Shown: positions 32,547 to 63,356 of the stretch, in pieces | Position numbering within the stretch: position 1 is the first letter of the stretch | How the letters are laid out: each line of letters opens with the position of its first letter | Assembly: GCA_011800155.1 (NCBI GenBank) | Contig: CM022371.1 | Location: forward strand, 124,001-188,000 | Direction: 5' to 3' | Length of the DNA: 64,000 bases | From: Flammulina velutipes | Lineage: Eukaryota; Basidiomycota; Agaricomycetes; Agaricales; Physalacriaceae | The notes under the pieces: model-generated | Database searches by the model: none | Told to the model about the DNA's origin: nothing | The model's input: only the letters and a program-made list of their open reading frames with translations | Translations under genes and position numbers: made by a program

Positions 32547-33261
32547 TAGGGTTTCAAGGTCTGGTTACAAGACTGGTAAAAGACCGATGACCGAACCGGA
32601 CCGAACCGGTCACGTAACCATCATGTCACGTAACCGGTCACTGGTTTGAACCGGTCACGGTTACCTGTTCACACCTTAGATGAGATTTTGAAAGACCGGC
32701 AAAAGACTGGTTAGACCGGTCAGACCCGGGACCAAGCTCAAAGTCCAAAAAAGTTGAAAAGACTCGTGTCTCTGCGAGTTTTTTGATTTTAATAAGTCAG
32801 CATTAGCTTTCTATCACTATTGTCAATAGTAAAAGTTGTTTGTATTCATTAAACACACATTATAAAAAAAACTAGCGGCGTGGGAAAGTTGAAGATAGTC
32901 ATATTCAACTGTGGCCAAGGTAGTAGGTAAGGGTATCTAATGTATATTGAGTCTGTACTAGTAATTCCCTTGTGGCTCAGTTGTTAAAGCACTATAAAAG
33001 TGTCAATACTCCTGAGGTTACTCGTTCAAACCCTGTTAAAGCCAATGGTTTTCACGGTCTGACTGGTTCTGAACCGGTTAAACCGGGCCCGTGGTTTAAC
33101 CGGTCTTGACCACTGTAACTGGATAGAACCGGGACCGGTTTGGCAGTTAGACTGGTCACGGTTCCGGTTCCACACGGTTTCAAAATTTTAAGACCAGTCC
33201 CGGTTAGCGGTCTCGTCATTTTTGACCAAAAAACCGAACCGGACCGGACCTTAAAACCCTA
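32547..33261. mobile_element. hAT-like TIR element with tRNA-like core, sister family
   Basis: Starts TAGGGTTTCAAGGTCTGG and ends GGACCTTAAAACCCTA (715 bp). Both ends are packed with ACCGG/CCGGT subterminal repeats, and the centre is AT-rich. Its ends and length resemble the 717-bp family (TAGGCCTTTAAGGTC...). It sits inside the DUF6589 reading frame. The flanks contain ATTACACT before it and ATTACGCT four bases after it, a likely diverged 8-bp duplication. Confidence 0.75.
32966..33042 (+). ncRNA. tRNA-like sequence inside TIR element
   Basis: Contains TGGCTCAGTTGTTAAAGC, similar to a tRNA D-arm/box A, and GGTTACTCGTTCAAACCC, close to box B/T-arm, spaced as in a tRNA, with TTTT following. 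The acceptor stem is not convincing, so it is tRNA-derived rather than a functional tRNA. Confidence 0.5.
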
Positions 33262-37458: not shown

Positions 37459-38175
37459 TAGGCCTTTAAGGTCCGGTCCTATGGACTGCCAAATGACTGC
37501 CAACTGGACCGGACTGGACTGCAAAAAGACCGCCAAGAAAAAAAGACCGGTCGGAAAAAAGACTGGTCCCAGTTGGCAGTCCTGAAGTTGGATGAGAATA
37601 TTTAGAACTGCCAAAAGACCGGTGCGACCAGTCATGGACCGGTCCATAGTCAAACGGACTATCAAAGGGTGTTCAGACATATTTTAGCTAGTTTAGAGTA
37701 CAAAAACATATATTTTAGCTCATATATCAAGTTGAATTGAATAATTACAATGTTTACCCTCTTAAATGAACACTTGAATACATAATTATGAGTTGAAATT
37801 TTAACGATGACATAGTATATTGCATAAAGTTACTATATATAATAAGACACTGTGGTCTAGTGGTTAGAACACCTCAATTTCACCTGTAATAGGTGAGGTC
37901 TTGAGTTCAATCCTTACTAGATGCACATTTTTGTGCACGCGACTCGACCTTGGGATGCGCTGTACAACAGTTGGACCAGTTGGACTGCAGTCCGGACTGG
38001 CCCCCGGTTCAACTGGTCGGACTGGAAAGACCGGACTGCAGTCGCGACGGTCTAATTAAAAGACCGGTCCCGGTTGATGGTCCTTCCAAAAAGAAGAAAA
38101 CGAAGGACTGCCCCAGTTGGCGGTCCTTGAAAAAAAATGAAAAAGACCGGACCGAGACCGGACCTTAAAGGCCTA
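37459..38175 (+). mobile_element. 717-bp hAT-like TIR element with tRNA-like core, copy 1
   Basis: Ends TAGGCCTTTAAGGTCCGGTC and GACCGGACCTTAAAGGCCTA are perfect inverted repeats. Subterminal zones consist of repeated GGTCCGG, GACCGG and GGCAGTCC motifs. It is almost identical, in inverted orientation, to 55167-55883 and related to 62630-63356. No 8-bp duplication flanks this copy (ACCACGGC against GTCTCCGA), consistent with loss of adjacent helicase sequence. Confidence 0.85.
37846..37923 (+). ncRNA. tRNA-like (Glu-type) sequence inside TIR element copy 1
   Basis: TGGTCTAGTGGTTAGAAC matches the box A/D-arm of eukaryotic tRNA-Glu/Asp types. GAGTTCAATCC fits box B/T-loop. CCTCA and TGAGG form a five-pair anticodon-like stem, but the loop is too long for a normal tRNA. 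A T5 run follows at about 37927, suitable as a Pol III terminator. Confidence 0.55.
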
Positions 38176-55166: not shown

Positions 55167-55883
55167 TAGGCCTTTAAGGTCCGGTCTCGGTCCGGTCTTT
55201 TTCATTTTTTTTCAAGGACCGCCAACTGGGGCAGTCCTTCGTTTTCTTCTTTTTGGAAGGACCATCAACCGGGACCGGTCTTTTAATTAGACCGTCGCGA
55301 CTGCAGTCCGGTCTTTCCAGTCCGACCAGTTGAACCGGGGGCCAGTCCGGACTGCAGTCCAACTGGTCCAACTGTTGTACAGCGCATCCCAAGGTCGAGT
55401 CGCGTGCACAAAAATGTGCATCTAGTAAGGATTGAACTCAAGACCTCACCTATTACAGGTGAAATTGAGGTGTTCTAACCACTAGACCACAGTGTCTTAT
55501 TATATATAGTAACTTTATGCAATATACTATGTCATCGTTAAAATTTCAACTCATAATTATGTATTCAAGTGTTCATTTAAGAGGGTAAACATTGTAATTA
55601 TTCAATTCAACTTGATATATGAGCTAAAATATATGTTTTTGTACTCTAAACTAGCTAAAATATGTCTGAACACCCTTTGATAGTCCGTTTGACTATGGAC
55701 CGGTCCATGACTGGTCGCACCGGTCTTTTGGCAGTCCTAAATATTCTCATCCAACTTCAGGACTGCCAACTGGGACCAGTCTTTTTTCCGACCGGTCTTT
55801 TTTTCTTGGCGGTCTTTTTGCGGTCCGGTCCAGTCCAGTTGGCAGTCATTTGGCAGTCCATAGGACCAGACCTTAAAGGCCTA
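55167..55883 (-). mobile_element. 717-bp hAT-like TIR element with tRNA-like core, copy 2
   Basis: Same length and nearly the same sequence as 37459-38175, in opposite orientation. Its tRNA-like part is at 55419-55497 on the minus strand. It lies in the chromodomain of the Gypsy pol with a perfect 8-bp duplication, the hallmark of hAT-type transposition. Confidence 0.9.
55419..55497 (-). ncRNA. tRNA-like sequence inside TIR element copy 2
   Basis: Same box A-like (TGGTCTAGTGGTTAGAAC) and box B-like (GAGTTCAATCC) motifs as in copy 1, with a T5 run after it. Confidence 0.55.
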
Positions 55884-57688
55884 CAGATACTGCACACCTC
55901 GCTTGTTCCGGGTAGGGCGTGAGTCTAAGATGGCCTCGACATCGTAGTCTTCATCGTCATCTAGAAGCTCGGGTAGCGCACCCGGGAAGTTGGGTCCATG
56001 CGCATTGGTCTCCTTGAATGGGACAAGTAGGGATGCATGGAGTACGGGATGAATGCGCCATTTTGGCGGGAGTTTAAGCCGATAGGTGACTGGGCCGAGA
56101 ACGTCAGTGATTTCAAAGGGACCGTGTCGCTTGTTGGCAAGCTTAGCTTTTGGTCTGGTGGTTTTAAGGTTTTTGCCGTCGAGCAGGACCTTATCGCCAA
56201 CTTTAAACACCACTCCTTTCCTCGTATCATCACCGTTGTTTCTCTTCATCAATTCGGCGGCAGTGGTTAGACTGGCCTGAACCTCCTCGCACAGGAGCTG
56301 CAGGTTCGTAAGGCGGTCTTCAACTGACGGGATCTTCGAAGTCGGGTTGAGTGAGGGGTAGAAGCGGGGTTGGAAACTATGGAGGAGCTCGAAGGGTGAC
56401 TTGCCCGTCGCGGCGTGGACACAGATGTTGTGGGAGAACTCCGCGTATGGGAGGTACTTCACCCAATCATCTTGTCGGTAGTTGCAGAAGACGCGTAAGA
56501 ACTGTTCAAGCTCTTGGTTGAAGCGCTCGGTCTCGCCATCTGTCTGGGGGTGATACGTGGTACTAAGGGCAGAGGTGATACCTAACTTAGCGTGAATAGC
56601 CTGCATGACTTTACTGGCGAACTGGGGTCCCCGGTCAGAGATCATCTTGTCCCAGAGACCGTAGCGTCTGAACATGTTGTCAATGAGAATGTCGACGGTC
56701 CCATCCGAGTCAATAGTTTTCTTGCACGGAGTGACTATGACGGTCTTGGTGAGTCGATCGACGACACAGTGAATGGAGTCGTAGCCGTTAACTTCTGGGA
56801 GGTCGGTGATGAAATCGGTAGTAATCGTGCCAAAAGGACGGTCAGGGATTTCATTGGGGACAAGAGGGACATGGGCGGGGTGATTATTCAGTTTTGTCAG
56901 CTGGCAAGTGGCACAGCCGTCGACATAGTCACGGACGAAGACCGACATGCCCGGCCACCAGAATTCACGACTCAGTAGTTCATAGGTTTTGAATCGTCCG
57001 GGATGGCCTGGCCCTACAAGGTCGTGGTGCATCTTGACGATGTCTTGACGGAGTTCGAGGTCAGCGGGGACATACACCTTGCCACGGAAGAGAACGATTC
57101 CATCTTCGTAATTCCATTCCTGTAGGTTTTTGACCAGCGAACGCGGACCGTTGCGAAGGATAACATCTAACGCACCGACAACCTCAGCGTCCTTCTTTGG
57201 ACATTCTCGAATACGACGTCTCAACTCAGCATCACCGATCGCCACCACCTCTCCTGGTCTAGTTGCTCGAATTCGGAAGAACTTGGGGTCTAGGAGTACA
57301 CGATCGGTGTTGTCGTCCTCGACCCCCTCTTTATGGTCCGCGCGGCGGGATAGTGGGTCACTACGGTTCGAAGTACCAGGTTTGTGCGTCAATGTAAAGT
57401 CAAATCGGGTGAGAAAAAGGGCCCATCGGGCTTGTCGGCGACTCAGCTTTTGCGCATTGGTAAAGTACTCGAGGTTCTTGTGGTCGGTGATGATATCAAC
57501 CGAGTGCGTGGCTCCTTCCAAGTAGTGCCGCCAAGCTTCGAGTGCATGGATAATTGCCAATAGCTCCTTGTCATGGATGTCGTAGTTGCGCTCGGGTCCC
57601 GACAAGGACTTGGACAAAAAGGTGACTGGATGCCACTGTCCGTCCTCGCTGACCTGAGACAGAATGCCTCCGGTGGCGTAGTCTGAGG

Positions 57689-58056
57689 TAGAGACCTCAA
57701 CGAGTTACCCGCGGGTGCACCCCCGGATCCCTGCATGGGTACCCATGGTCACCGGCCACTGCCCCTGCACCCTTGGCCGGACCCTCCACTTTTGACCCGC
57801 GGATCCGGAGGATCCGGGTTTTTTGAGACTCGACCCATGGGTACCCATGAAAATAGGCTTATATAGGCTTAATTAGGCAAGGATCCATGGGTACCCGTGG
57901 TGGGTACCCATGCATTTTACATAAATTCTGTCCCCGCACCCTTGCCGGACCCGGACCCTTTGACCCGCGGATCCAACGGGTCCGAGTCCGGGGGTCCCGG
58001 GCCGACGGATCTACCCGTGGGTACCCATCTGGACTCGGACCTCCATGAGGTCTCTA
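57689..58056. mobile_element. 368-bp hAT-like TIR element, GC-rich
   Basis: TIRs TAGAGACCTCA and TGAGGTCTCTA, with 8-bp duplication GTCTGAGG at 57681-57688 and 58057-58064. The interior is full of GGGTACCCATG and GGATCCG palindromic words and is non-coding. It separates V-D-A-S-D from Y-A-T-G-G in the RT/RNase H junction of the Gypsy pol; removing element plus one duplication restores the frame. Confidence 0.85.
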
Positions 58057-59587
58057 GTCTGAGGCATCTACTTCAACACGATATGGCTTTTCAGCATCGG
58101 GCATGATAAGGACAGGAGACGAGGTGAACGCATCTTTGAGGGCCTCGAAGGCCGTTTGACATTCCGGAGACCATACCCAAGGTTGATCCTTCTTGGTGAG
58201 ATCGAACAGTGGTCGTGCCAACTTGGAGAATCCTTCGATGAACCGTCGATAGAAGTTGCCAAAACCCAAAAAGGACTGCACGTCCTTCACGTGCCGTGGG
58301 GTTGGCCACTGAACTTCGCCGGCGACTTTGACTAGGTCCATGCGGAGAGCGTTGTGAGAGATGATGAGACCTAGGAATTCGATGGACTCAGCTTCGAATA
58401 CACATTTCTCCGGCTTAGCATAAAGATCATGGTCTCGAAGTCGTTTGAGGACCTGACGTACGAGCTCGCGGTGTTCTTCCAGAGTTTCGGTGAAGATCAG
58501 GATATCGTCCATGTAGACGACAACTTTTCCGGAGTCGATAAGATCCTTGAGAATGGTATTCATCATTGCTTGAAACGTGGCGGGGGAATTCATAAGACCA
58601 AAGAACATCACCAGGGGTTCAAACAGGCCACAGTTTGTTTTGAACGCGCCTTTCCACTCGTCTCCCTCCTTTATCCGAACATTATTGTAGCCCCAACATA
58701 GGTCGATCTTGGAGAAGACTTTGGCGCCTTTCAGCTTGTCGATAAGCTCAGGAATGAGCGGCAGCGGGTACTCGTTCTTGACGGTGCCTTTGTTCAGGTC
58801 GCGATAATCCTGTACAGGGCGTAGCTTTCCATTCTTTTTCTTAACAAAGAAGAACGGACTTGCTATTGGGGACTTAGATGGGCGAATATAGCCCTTGGCC
58901 AGGTTTTCGTCGAGAAAGGCGTCGAGTTCCTTCTGTTCTGCAGGCGACAATGGATACATCTTGCAGGGTTTCGGTTCGAAGCCTGGTTTCAGGTCTATGG
59001 CGTGGTCCCAAGGACTGAGGCGTTCTGAAGTGGTTTTGTCGAACACCGTGAGATAGGCATGATAAGGGAAGGGAATGCATTCAGCGAGTGGTCGAGTGTC
59101 GGCTGGCTTTTGGCTAGTCTCAGCAAGCTCTTGGGCTCTGGTAAAACTAGCGCGAACGTGAACGAAAGGACCGTCTGAAGAATGTGGATCGCGCACTGGG
59201 CGGGGATAATCATCCCAGAATAACTCTTCAAATACTTCCTCCTCCCACTCTCTAGGGACTTCTTCTTCATCGTCGTCGTTCTCTGTGAAGAGGACGACAG
59301 GAATTTGTACTCAGGTAAATGCGCGTACTACGCGTCGGCGTCCAGCGACTCGGTGAACAGGTACAGGTTTGAGATTACCCTCTCGATCCTTCCACTGGAC
59401 CTGGTAGTCTTGGTGGTGAGCGCGAGGGTCATGCGGGGTTCGGGTCTGGTTAACGAGTGCAGGTGTGCGTTTAGCATGAGCACGTACATCGGTCACCGGT
59501 GGGTTTTTAAGGGTGCAGGTATCGGGGCATCGAGTGAAGTCAACACGAGTGCCGGCCCAGTCGATCTCGGGGTTGTGTTCCATCAGG

Positions 59588-62629: not shown

Positions 62630-63356
62630 TAGGCCTTTAAGATCCGGTCCTATGGACTGCCAAACGACTACCAACTGGACTGGACTGCAAAAAGACCACT
62701 AAGAAAAAAAGACTGTTTCGAAAAAAGACTGGTCCCAGTTGGCAGTCCTGAGGTTGGATGAGAATATTTAGGACTGTCAAAAGACCAGTGTGACTAGTCG
62801 TGGACCGGTCCATAGTAAAACAGACTACCAAAGGGTGTTCAGACAGATTTTAGCTAGTTTAGAGTACAAAAACATATATTTCAGCTCATATATCAAGTTG
62901 AATTGAATAATCACAATGTTTATCCTCTCAAATGAACACTTGAATACATAATAGTGAGTTGAAATTTTGACAATAACATAGTAGCCTATATATTGCATAA
63001 AGTTCCTATATATAACAAGACACTGTGGTCTAGTGGTTAGAACTTAGAACATCTCAATTTCATCTACATTAGGTGAGGGATTGAGTTCAATCCTTACTAG
63101 ATGTACATTTTTGTGCGCGTGACTCGACCTTGGGACACACTGTGCAACAGTTGGACCAGTTGGACTGCAGTCCGGACCAGCCCCTAGTTCAACCAGTCAA
63201 ACTAGAAAGACCAGACTGCAGTCACGACAGTCTCATTAAAATACCAGTCCTGGTTAATGGTCCTTCCAAAAAGAAGAAAACCAAGGACCACCCTGGTTGG
63301 CGGTCCTTGAAAAAAACATGAAAAAGACCGGATCGAGACTGAACCTTAAAGCCCTA
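62630..63356 (+). mobile_element. hAT-like TIR element with tRNA-like core, copy 3 (diverged)
   Basis: TAGGCCTTTAAGATCCGG at the left and GAACCTTAAAGCCCTA at the right, same internal order as copies 1 and 2 with many transitions. It is an older copy. No clear duplication flanks it. Confidence 0.8.
63019..63103 (+). ncRNA. tRNA-like sequence inside TIR element copy 3
   Basis: Keeps TGGTCTAGTGGTTAGAAC and GAGTTCAATCC despite divergence elsewhere in the element, with a small insertion (TTAGAA) between them. Followed by a T5 run. Confidence 0.5.

Follow-up and report, generated by a model that had tools for sequence, protein, structure and literature searches.

Promoters for RNA polymerase III (Pol III) inside a mobile element are taken as a mark of SINEs, and a locus at which elements with terminal inverted repeats (TIRs) appear to contain such a promoter raises the question of what the tRNA-like sequence is, how it came to lie there and whether it is kept for a function. 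An earlier note on this DNA had described four elements of this kind in the window, i.e. the whole 64,000-nt stretch that was analyzed (C4:124001–188000), and had suggested either a selected design or repeated capture. The genome searched in this study comprised 38.1 Mb in 23 contigs and is probably that of a basidiomycete, as ORFs in the window encode DUF6535 and DUF6589 domains, which belong to mushroom-forming fungi. Judged from the sequence, the arrangement appears to be real and unusual and is best filed as a variant form of non-autonomous hAT elements. The account that we favor, with a probability of approximately 0.6, is that tRNA sequences were captured independently as filler by non-autonomous hAT elements, spread as cargo of these elements, and were affected by the exchange of modules between families.

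Two related families of non-autonomous hAT elements

All four pairs of coordinates given in the earlier note were correct when checked against the sequence and the genome matches. The four stretches are copies from two related families of non-autonomous hAT transposons, designated family A (approximately 717 bp) and family B (approximately 715 bp). Family A is represented by copy 1 at 37459–38175 on the forward strand (717 bp), by copy 2 at 55167–55883 on the reverse strand (core at 55407–55502), and by a diverged copy 3 at 62630–63356 on the forward strand (core at 63013–63115, with a 7-bp insertion), and family B by one element at 32547–33261 on the forward strand (715 bp). Identity to copy 1 was 99.3% for copy 2 and approximately 88% for copy 3. 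Family A had 42 matches in the genome, two of which were cross-matches of 68–70% to a further family, C, and family B had 31, many of which were short cross-matches.

hAT elements have short TIRs of a TAGG-like type. The TIRs of families A and B are approximately 20 bp long and start with TAGG, and in copy 1 the left TIR (37459–37478, forward strand) pairs with the right TIR (38156–38175, reverse strand) at 20 of 20 positions. The claim that the TIRs are shared was borne out, as the first 20 bases agree at 20, 19, 16 and 17 of 20 positions in the elements starting at 37459, 55167, 62630 and 32547, respectively. The subterminal location of the CCGG-type arrays was likewise confirmed, with 16, 0 and 16 motifs in the left 200 bp, the middle and the right 200 bp of copy 1, 6, 0 and 4 in copy 3, and 20, 1 and 16 in the family B element. 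Among copies with both ends, an 8-bp target duplication was perfect in 16 of 23 family A copies, had one mismatch in two and was absent in five, and it was perfect in three of four family B copies. Among the four copies in the window, the duplication is kept only at 55167, where it is perfect (AGTATCTG); a matching duplication was absent at copy 1, copy 3 and the family B element.

The ends of families A and B are related to each other (left z = 20.6, right z = 10.2), whereas their AT-rich middles are unrelated (z = 0). The shared TIR pattern was found at 176 genomic sites, compared with 8 for a reversed control, and the 100 of the 176 sites that were listed led to at least a subfamily A2 (80% identity to A), families C (approximately 885 bp), D (approximately 953 bp), E (approximately 260 bp) and F (602 bp, L089 4196–4797, with related TIRs and a perfect duplication, CTTATAAC), and the locus L087. 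The L087 locus is a hAT transposase locus, in which the hAT dimerization domain PF05699 (Dimer_Tnp_hAT) was detected with E = 2.6e-8 in one of the four ORF pieces scanned, and the ORF piece with this domain lies approximately 300 bp before a TIR of the shared type. A homology search with one ORF piece of L087 returned 14 relatives with uninformative names. The right TIR region of L087 was 73–77% identical to the ends of family D over approximately 80 bp, and families D and A had only approximately 30 terminal bases in common by blastn. The left boundary of L087 is uncertain, and no matching duplication was found there. The TIRs, the 8-bp duplications and the presence of a hAT transposase locus whose right end is related make non-autonomous hAT transposons the best reading of the elements, in agreement with their earlier description as hAT-like.

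tRNA-derived cores with Pol III-type signals

The family A core contains a tRNA-derived unit at 37846–37925 on the forward strand. Its box A at 37853–37867 on the same strand (TGGTCTAGTGGTTAG; the box A motif TGGTCTAGTGG starts at 37853) has its first 14 bases identical in the host genes for tRNA-Glu(TTC) (L127) and tRNA-Val(TAC) (L128), and its box B at 37903–37913, also on the forward strand (GAGTTCAATCC), is identical in the host tRNA-Ala(CGC) gene (L119). Box B starts 50 bp after the start of box A and is followed on the forward strand by a run of five T residues at 37928–37932, located inside a small hairpin, which may act as a Pol III terminator. In family B the corresponding unit was found at 32966–33044 on the forward strand, with tRNA-Thr(AGT) as the nearest host tRNA; the box scan placed box A at 32973–32983 and box B at 33023–33033, and the sequence has a T4 run at 33049–33052, all three on the forward strand. 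Box A is located at position 395 of 717 in family A and at position 427 of 715 in family B, in the same orientation.

The box A+B scan (maximum score 29, plus strand, 60 dinucleotide shuffles) was carried out on single copies, as was the folding. The proposed boxes rose above shuffled sequence in copy 1 and copy 3, both of which scored 27 (0 of 60 shuffles each). A score of 26 was obtained for the family B element in the window (1 of 60) and for a diverged family B copy, L063 (3 of 60), and the older A2 copies did not score above shuffles (L042, 28 of 60; L043, 51 of 60). The box scan alone says little for family B: a score of 25, matched by 1 of 60 shuffles, was obtained for a family C copy as well. 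The T5 run is intact in all 30 family A copies that reach it, and the family B cores have a T4 or T5 run in an alignment of eight of ten copies. The invariant positions of both boxes are kept in 20 of the 30 family A copies that reach both and are changed in ten, including L042 and L043. An 8-bp stretch that includes most of box B is missing from L043, an A2 copy whose duplication is perfect. Suitably spaced boxes A and B followed by a T-run, the sequence features of a Pol III unit, were found in many copies.

The cores were compared with 32 host tRNA genes (63 tRNA matches were scored from 1373 candidates, approximately half were fetched, and others were added). The 5' half of the family A core resembles tRNA-Glu/Val and its 3' half resembles tRNA-Ala: the family A consensus agrees with tRNA-Ala(CGC) at 23 of 25 bases around the T-arm and box B and with tRNA-Glu(TTC) at 15 of 15 around box A, where TTTCAC of the anticodon region was also aligned. 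The family B consensus could be aligned with tRNA-Thr(AGT) over most of the length of the core. The best scores against the 32 tRNAs were 42 for the family A consensus and 37 for the family B consensus, neither reached by any of 1000 dinucleotide shuffles. Single copies scored lower, with 33 for the family B copy in the window and 34 for copy 3 (3 of 1000 shuffles each). Among 8522 slices of the window, taken from both strands, scores of 38 or more were found only in family A copies 1 and 2, one unrelated place scored 37, and the family B copy did not stand out.

ARAGORN predicted no tRNAs in the window, and Rfam reported none at the gathering level. In the covariance-model tRNA search, the family A core scored 13.6 bits against the complete model, short of the cut-off of 29, and an antisense match to a different family ranked higher. 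The family B core had no Rfam tRNA match, and in 15 loci with A, B or other elements, Rfam tRNA was absent at E values up to 10. A functional tRNA gene was rejected on the basis of these scores. Although tRNA programs reject the cores, their proposed tRNA origin is supported by the comparison with host tRNAs, and by sequence the cores of families A and B are degenerate and appear to be tRNA-derived.

At blastn sensitivity, the family A core is confined to family A (31 of 31 genome matches) and the family B core to family B (10 of 10). The similarity between the two cores (z = 2.7) is below the median of 3.1 for host tRNAs of different amino acids compared with each other (range -1.2 to 12.5), and common descent of the two cores was therefore considered to be unsupported; in this comparison the best host tRNAs gave z = 11 for the family A core and z = 9 for the family B core. 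As the cores are no more alike than two tRNAs, two captures are likely, and families A and B probably had two different tRNA sources. These results agree with the proposals that the sister family has a different tRNA-like sequence at a similar place (tRNA-Thr, as opposed to tRNA-Glu/Val and tRNA-Ala) and that capture was repeated: the two families match different host tRNAs, and between themselves their cores are no more similar than unrelated tRNAs. The tRNAs named here are the nearest among 32 host genes, and the restriction to these 32 counts against the capture account. No host-tRNA-like core was found in the copies of families C, E and F (one each) and D (two) that were compared, with scores of 25–28. 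A candidate tRNA-like core at L087, with a score of 34, was rejected, because slices of the window that lie outside the elements score as high.

The RNA of the family A core, including the terminator hairpin, was predicted to fold into a rod with no cloverleaf (z = -2.9, 0 of 200 shuffles). The z value depended on the hairpin, weakening to -1.5 without it, and the family B cores gave -1.2 and -1.7. In an alignment of 28 of the 30 located family A cores, from which L018 and L019 were omitted as near-identical to L017, 98.7% of pair cells stay paired, a value reached by 8 of 500 shuffles. RNA structure was weighed little, because pairing only just exceeds that of shuffles and a C-to-T change leaves a G-U pair at no cost, and the fold was rejected as proof of function.

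Module exchange and selection as accounts of the conserved core

According to the favored account, hAT transposases would recognize the shared TAGG ends and the CCGGTC subterminal arrays and may move families A and B in trans. Internally deleted elements would form, and two lineages would each incorporate as filler, probably independently, sequence copied from a host tRNA gene, possibly by template switching while an excision gap is repaired. The captured unit would then spread as cargo of the element, and internal modules would be swapped between families. Pol III could make an RNA of approximately 90 nt, predicted to be a rod rather than a cloverleaf; such a transcript is possible because box A, box B and the T-run are still present in many copies.

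The strongest alternative, which we nevertheless consider unlikely, is that the core is kept by selection because the element benefits from TFIIIC binding or from transcription by Pol III; these might, for example, keep the DNA open for the transposase or form a boundary against silencing. A broader form of this explanation, in which a class of non-autonomous DNA transposons repeatedly acquires a tRNA-derived Pol III promoter unit and keeps it under selection because it recruits TFIIIC/Pol III or makes a rod RNA that aids spread, appears more doubtful still. The presence of a Pol III-type unit in two lineages, similarly placed and identically oriented, speaks for selection, as do the rod fold with its terminator hairpin and the high proportion of pairs that stay paired. 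The retention of the T-run in 30 of 30 family A copies counts against the favored account, though most copies are young. The low z values of the family A fold without the hairpin and of the family B folds, the examined C, D, E and F copies without a host-tRNA-like core, the ten of 30 family A copies with a changed invariant box position and the loss of most of box B from L043, which has a perfect duplication, speak against selection.

Conservation of the core was examined in alignments of copies (matches of at least 150 bp and at least 78% identity). The family A alignment had 36 rows, with the omission of L045 (the same left flank as L044, core absent) and L059 (overlapping L046), and the family B alignment had 12 rows, with the omission of L046 (overlapping L059). 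The comparison of A with A2 used 30 young A rows and three A2 rows (L040, L051 and L052 omitted), and that within family B used eight young rows and L063 and L064 (L065 and L066 omitted as apparent duplicates of L064).

Fixed differences between A and A2 were found at 5 of 96 positions in the core and at 127 of 621 in the rest (Fisher p = 0.00018 for all changes, 0.00016 without CpG and 0.00012 for transversions), and the net divergence was 0.018–0.020 in the core, 0.056 at 478–580, and 0.12–0.22 in the left, AT-rich and right-end parts. Taken alone, both contrasts would favor selection on the source elements. Copy-specific changes were no rarer per base in the core: among young family A copies, 20 fell in the core and 84 in the rest, which has 6.4 times more bases (0.785% versus 0.518% per base), so that the core is not protected after insertion. 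The claim that the tRNA-like motifs stay conserved in the diverged copy 3 held for the two boxes, both of which are kept, but not for the core as a whole, which with 92.7% identity was not better kept than the rest (91.7%); its non-CpG divergence was 7.3%, compared with 4.4% in the rest, and it contains the 7-bp insertion.

The stretch between A and A2 that is free of transversions extends from 385 to approximately 576, approximately 100 bp beyond the T-run (470–474), which argues against selection on the tRNA-like unit. Positions 481–576 and 385–480 had five and four non-CpG differences and six and zero CpG changes, respectively. Outside the 385–576 block A and A2 are approximately 20% different, and the stem of A2 in the tree was 0.034 in the block and 0.457 outside. 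A block that is nearly unchanged while the rest differs by approximately 20% is best explained by module exchange. The tree of the block placed A2 beside one young copy with a support of 61, which is weak and leaves the exchange unproven by the tree. The 5' edge of the block (last difference at 382–384) lies within approximately 4 bases of the tRNA-like start at 388; under plain recombination this match would be a coincidence, which counts against exchange and keeps selection in play.

Family B did not repeat the pattern, as differences were found at 11 of 96 positions in the core and 101 of 617 in the rest (p = 0.19 for all changes, 0.053 without CpG and 1.0 for transversions), and its most conserved block was located at 193–336, outside the core. 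Excess conservation of the core was therefore found between A and A2, but it extends approximately 100 bp past the core and was not significant in family B; the suggestion of a selected design thus has the striking A/A2 conservation in its favor and these two results, together with the examined C, D, E and F copies, against it. The conserved blocks at different places in A (385–576) and B (193–336) look like module exchange during repair, which fits the conserved A block better than selection does. The elements are mosaic elsewhere as well, as A 507–712 matches C 676–880.

The mosaic structure extends to families C (L098 217–477) and D (L094 286–546), which have an internal block in common, with 81% identity compared with approximately 70% in the outer parts, and no Rfam match was found at these loci. 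The family B element (window 32757–32852) and family C (571–665) share 96 bp containing a GACTCG...CGAGTT hairpin, in opposite orientation and with 76% identity; in family B this segment falls inside the most conserved block.

Comparison with SINEs and other elements, and genomic surroundings

The idea that each element once received a tRNA-headed SINE and has carried it ever since is improbable. In its favor, tRNA-derived sequence with degenerate boxes followed by a T-run has the look of a SINE head, and fungal SINEs with degenerate boxes and no cloverleaf are on record (PMC5063351). A free copy of either core was not found by blastn in the genome, the unit is followed by subterminal repeats instead of a SINE body or tail, and the absence of direct repeats of more than 6 bp around the core, in the one copy per family that was inspected, gives no sign of a nested SINE; the nested SINE was rejected on the core searches and the flanking-repeat test. 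A chance resemblance to tRNAs is highly improbable and for family A is refuted, because neither consensus core was equaled by any of 1000 shuffles and the base identities to tRNA-Ala and tRNA-Glu are extensive, even though the tRNA programs gave only the sub-threshold family A match, the window copy of family B is inconspicuous and was equaled by 3 of 1000 shuffles, and the box scan put a family C copy at about the level of B.

Families A and B resemble non-autonomous (MITE-like) hAT elements in size, TAGG TIRs, 8-bp duplications, subterminal arrays and a related transposase locus, and differ from the usual ones in carrying a tRNA-derived unit with Pol III-type internal boxes. SINEs have duplications of variable length, a 3' tail and no TIRs, whereas families A and B have TIRs and fixed 8-bp duplications, and their boxes are located mid-element instead of at the 5' end, as in a tRNA-derived SINE head. 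Cassandra is an LTR retroelement with a 5S-type Pol III promoter of 5S rRNA origin in its LTR and is copied through RNA. Like Cassandra, A and B are mobile elements other than SINEs with a Pol III-type promoter; unlike it, they are DNA transposons with a promoter of apparent tRNA origin. In the fungal AfuSINE2, box A and box B are degenerate and derived from host tRNAs, and there is no cloverleaf (PMC5063351). The A and B cores share these properties, but in contrast to the AfuSINE2 SINEs their unit lies in the middle of a DNA transposon that has TIRs and duplications fixed at 8 bp, and it is followed by subterminal repeats. Dada DNA transposons are reported to insert into tRNA genes (PMC8869645); both these and the A and B elements are DNA transposons tied to tRNA genes, but A and B carry the tRNA sequence inside. 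Among the literature matches listed, in a search that mostly covered journals outside subscription, no earlier account of a tRNA-type promoter in a MITE was found.

If related cut-and-paste elements captured tRNA sequences twice in a single genome, the boundary between SINE-like and MITE-like elements would seem to be passable. Families A and B offer a natural experiment on whether a DNA transposon benefits from bound TFIIIC or from transcription by Pol III, and if the core is inert, the families still illustrate the shuffling of modules between hAT elements.

A further family A copy (L018, C4:188007–188723) is located just beyond the window. It has a perfect duplication (AATCCCAG) and sits within a box B-like sequence (GGGTTCAATCCCAG), at the edge of a low-copy inverted-repeat segment that is also found on C7; on its left-flank side no tRNA was detected in the Rfam search. 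This copy and those at 37459–38175 and 55167–55883, all within 27 kb, are 99.3–100% identical to one another, as would be expected from recent local transposition. Elements of families A, B and C are also clustered beside L087 at C1:2416000–2478000, where eight of the 42 family A matches are located, one of them a C cross-match. In the window, ORFs of an LTR retrotransposon (reverse transcriptase, RNase H and integrase) are located at 55881–59310 on the reverse strand, and the family A copy at 55167–55883 adjoins the end of its integrase frame.
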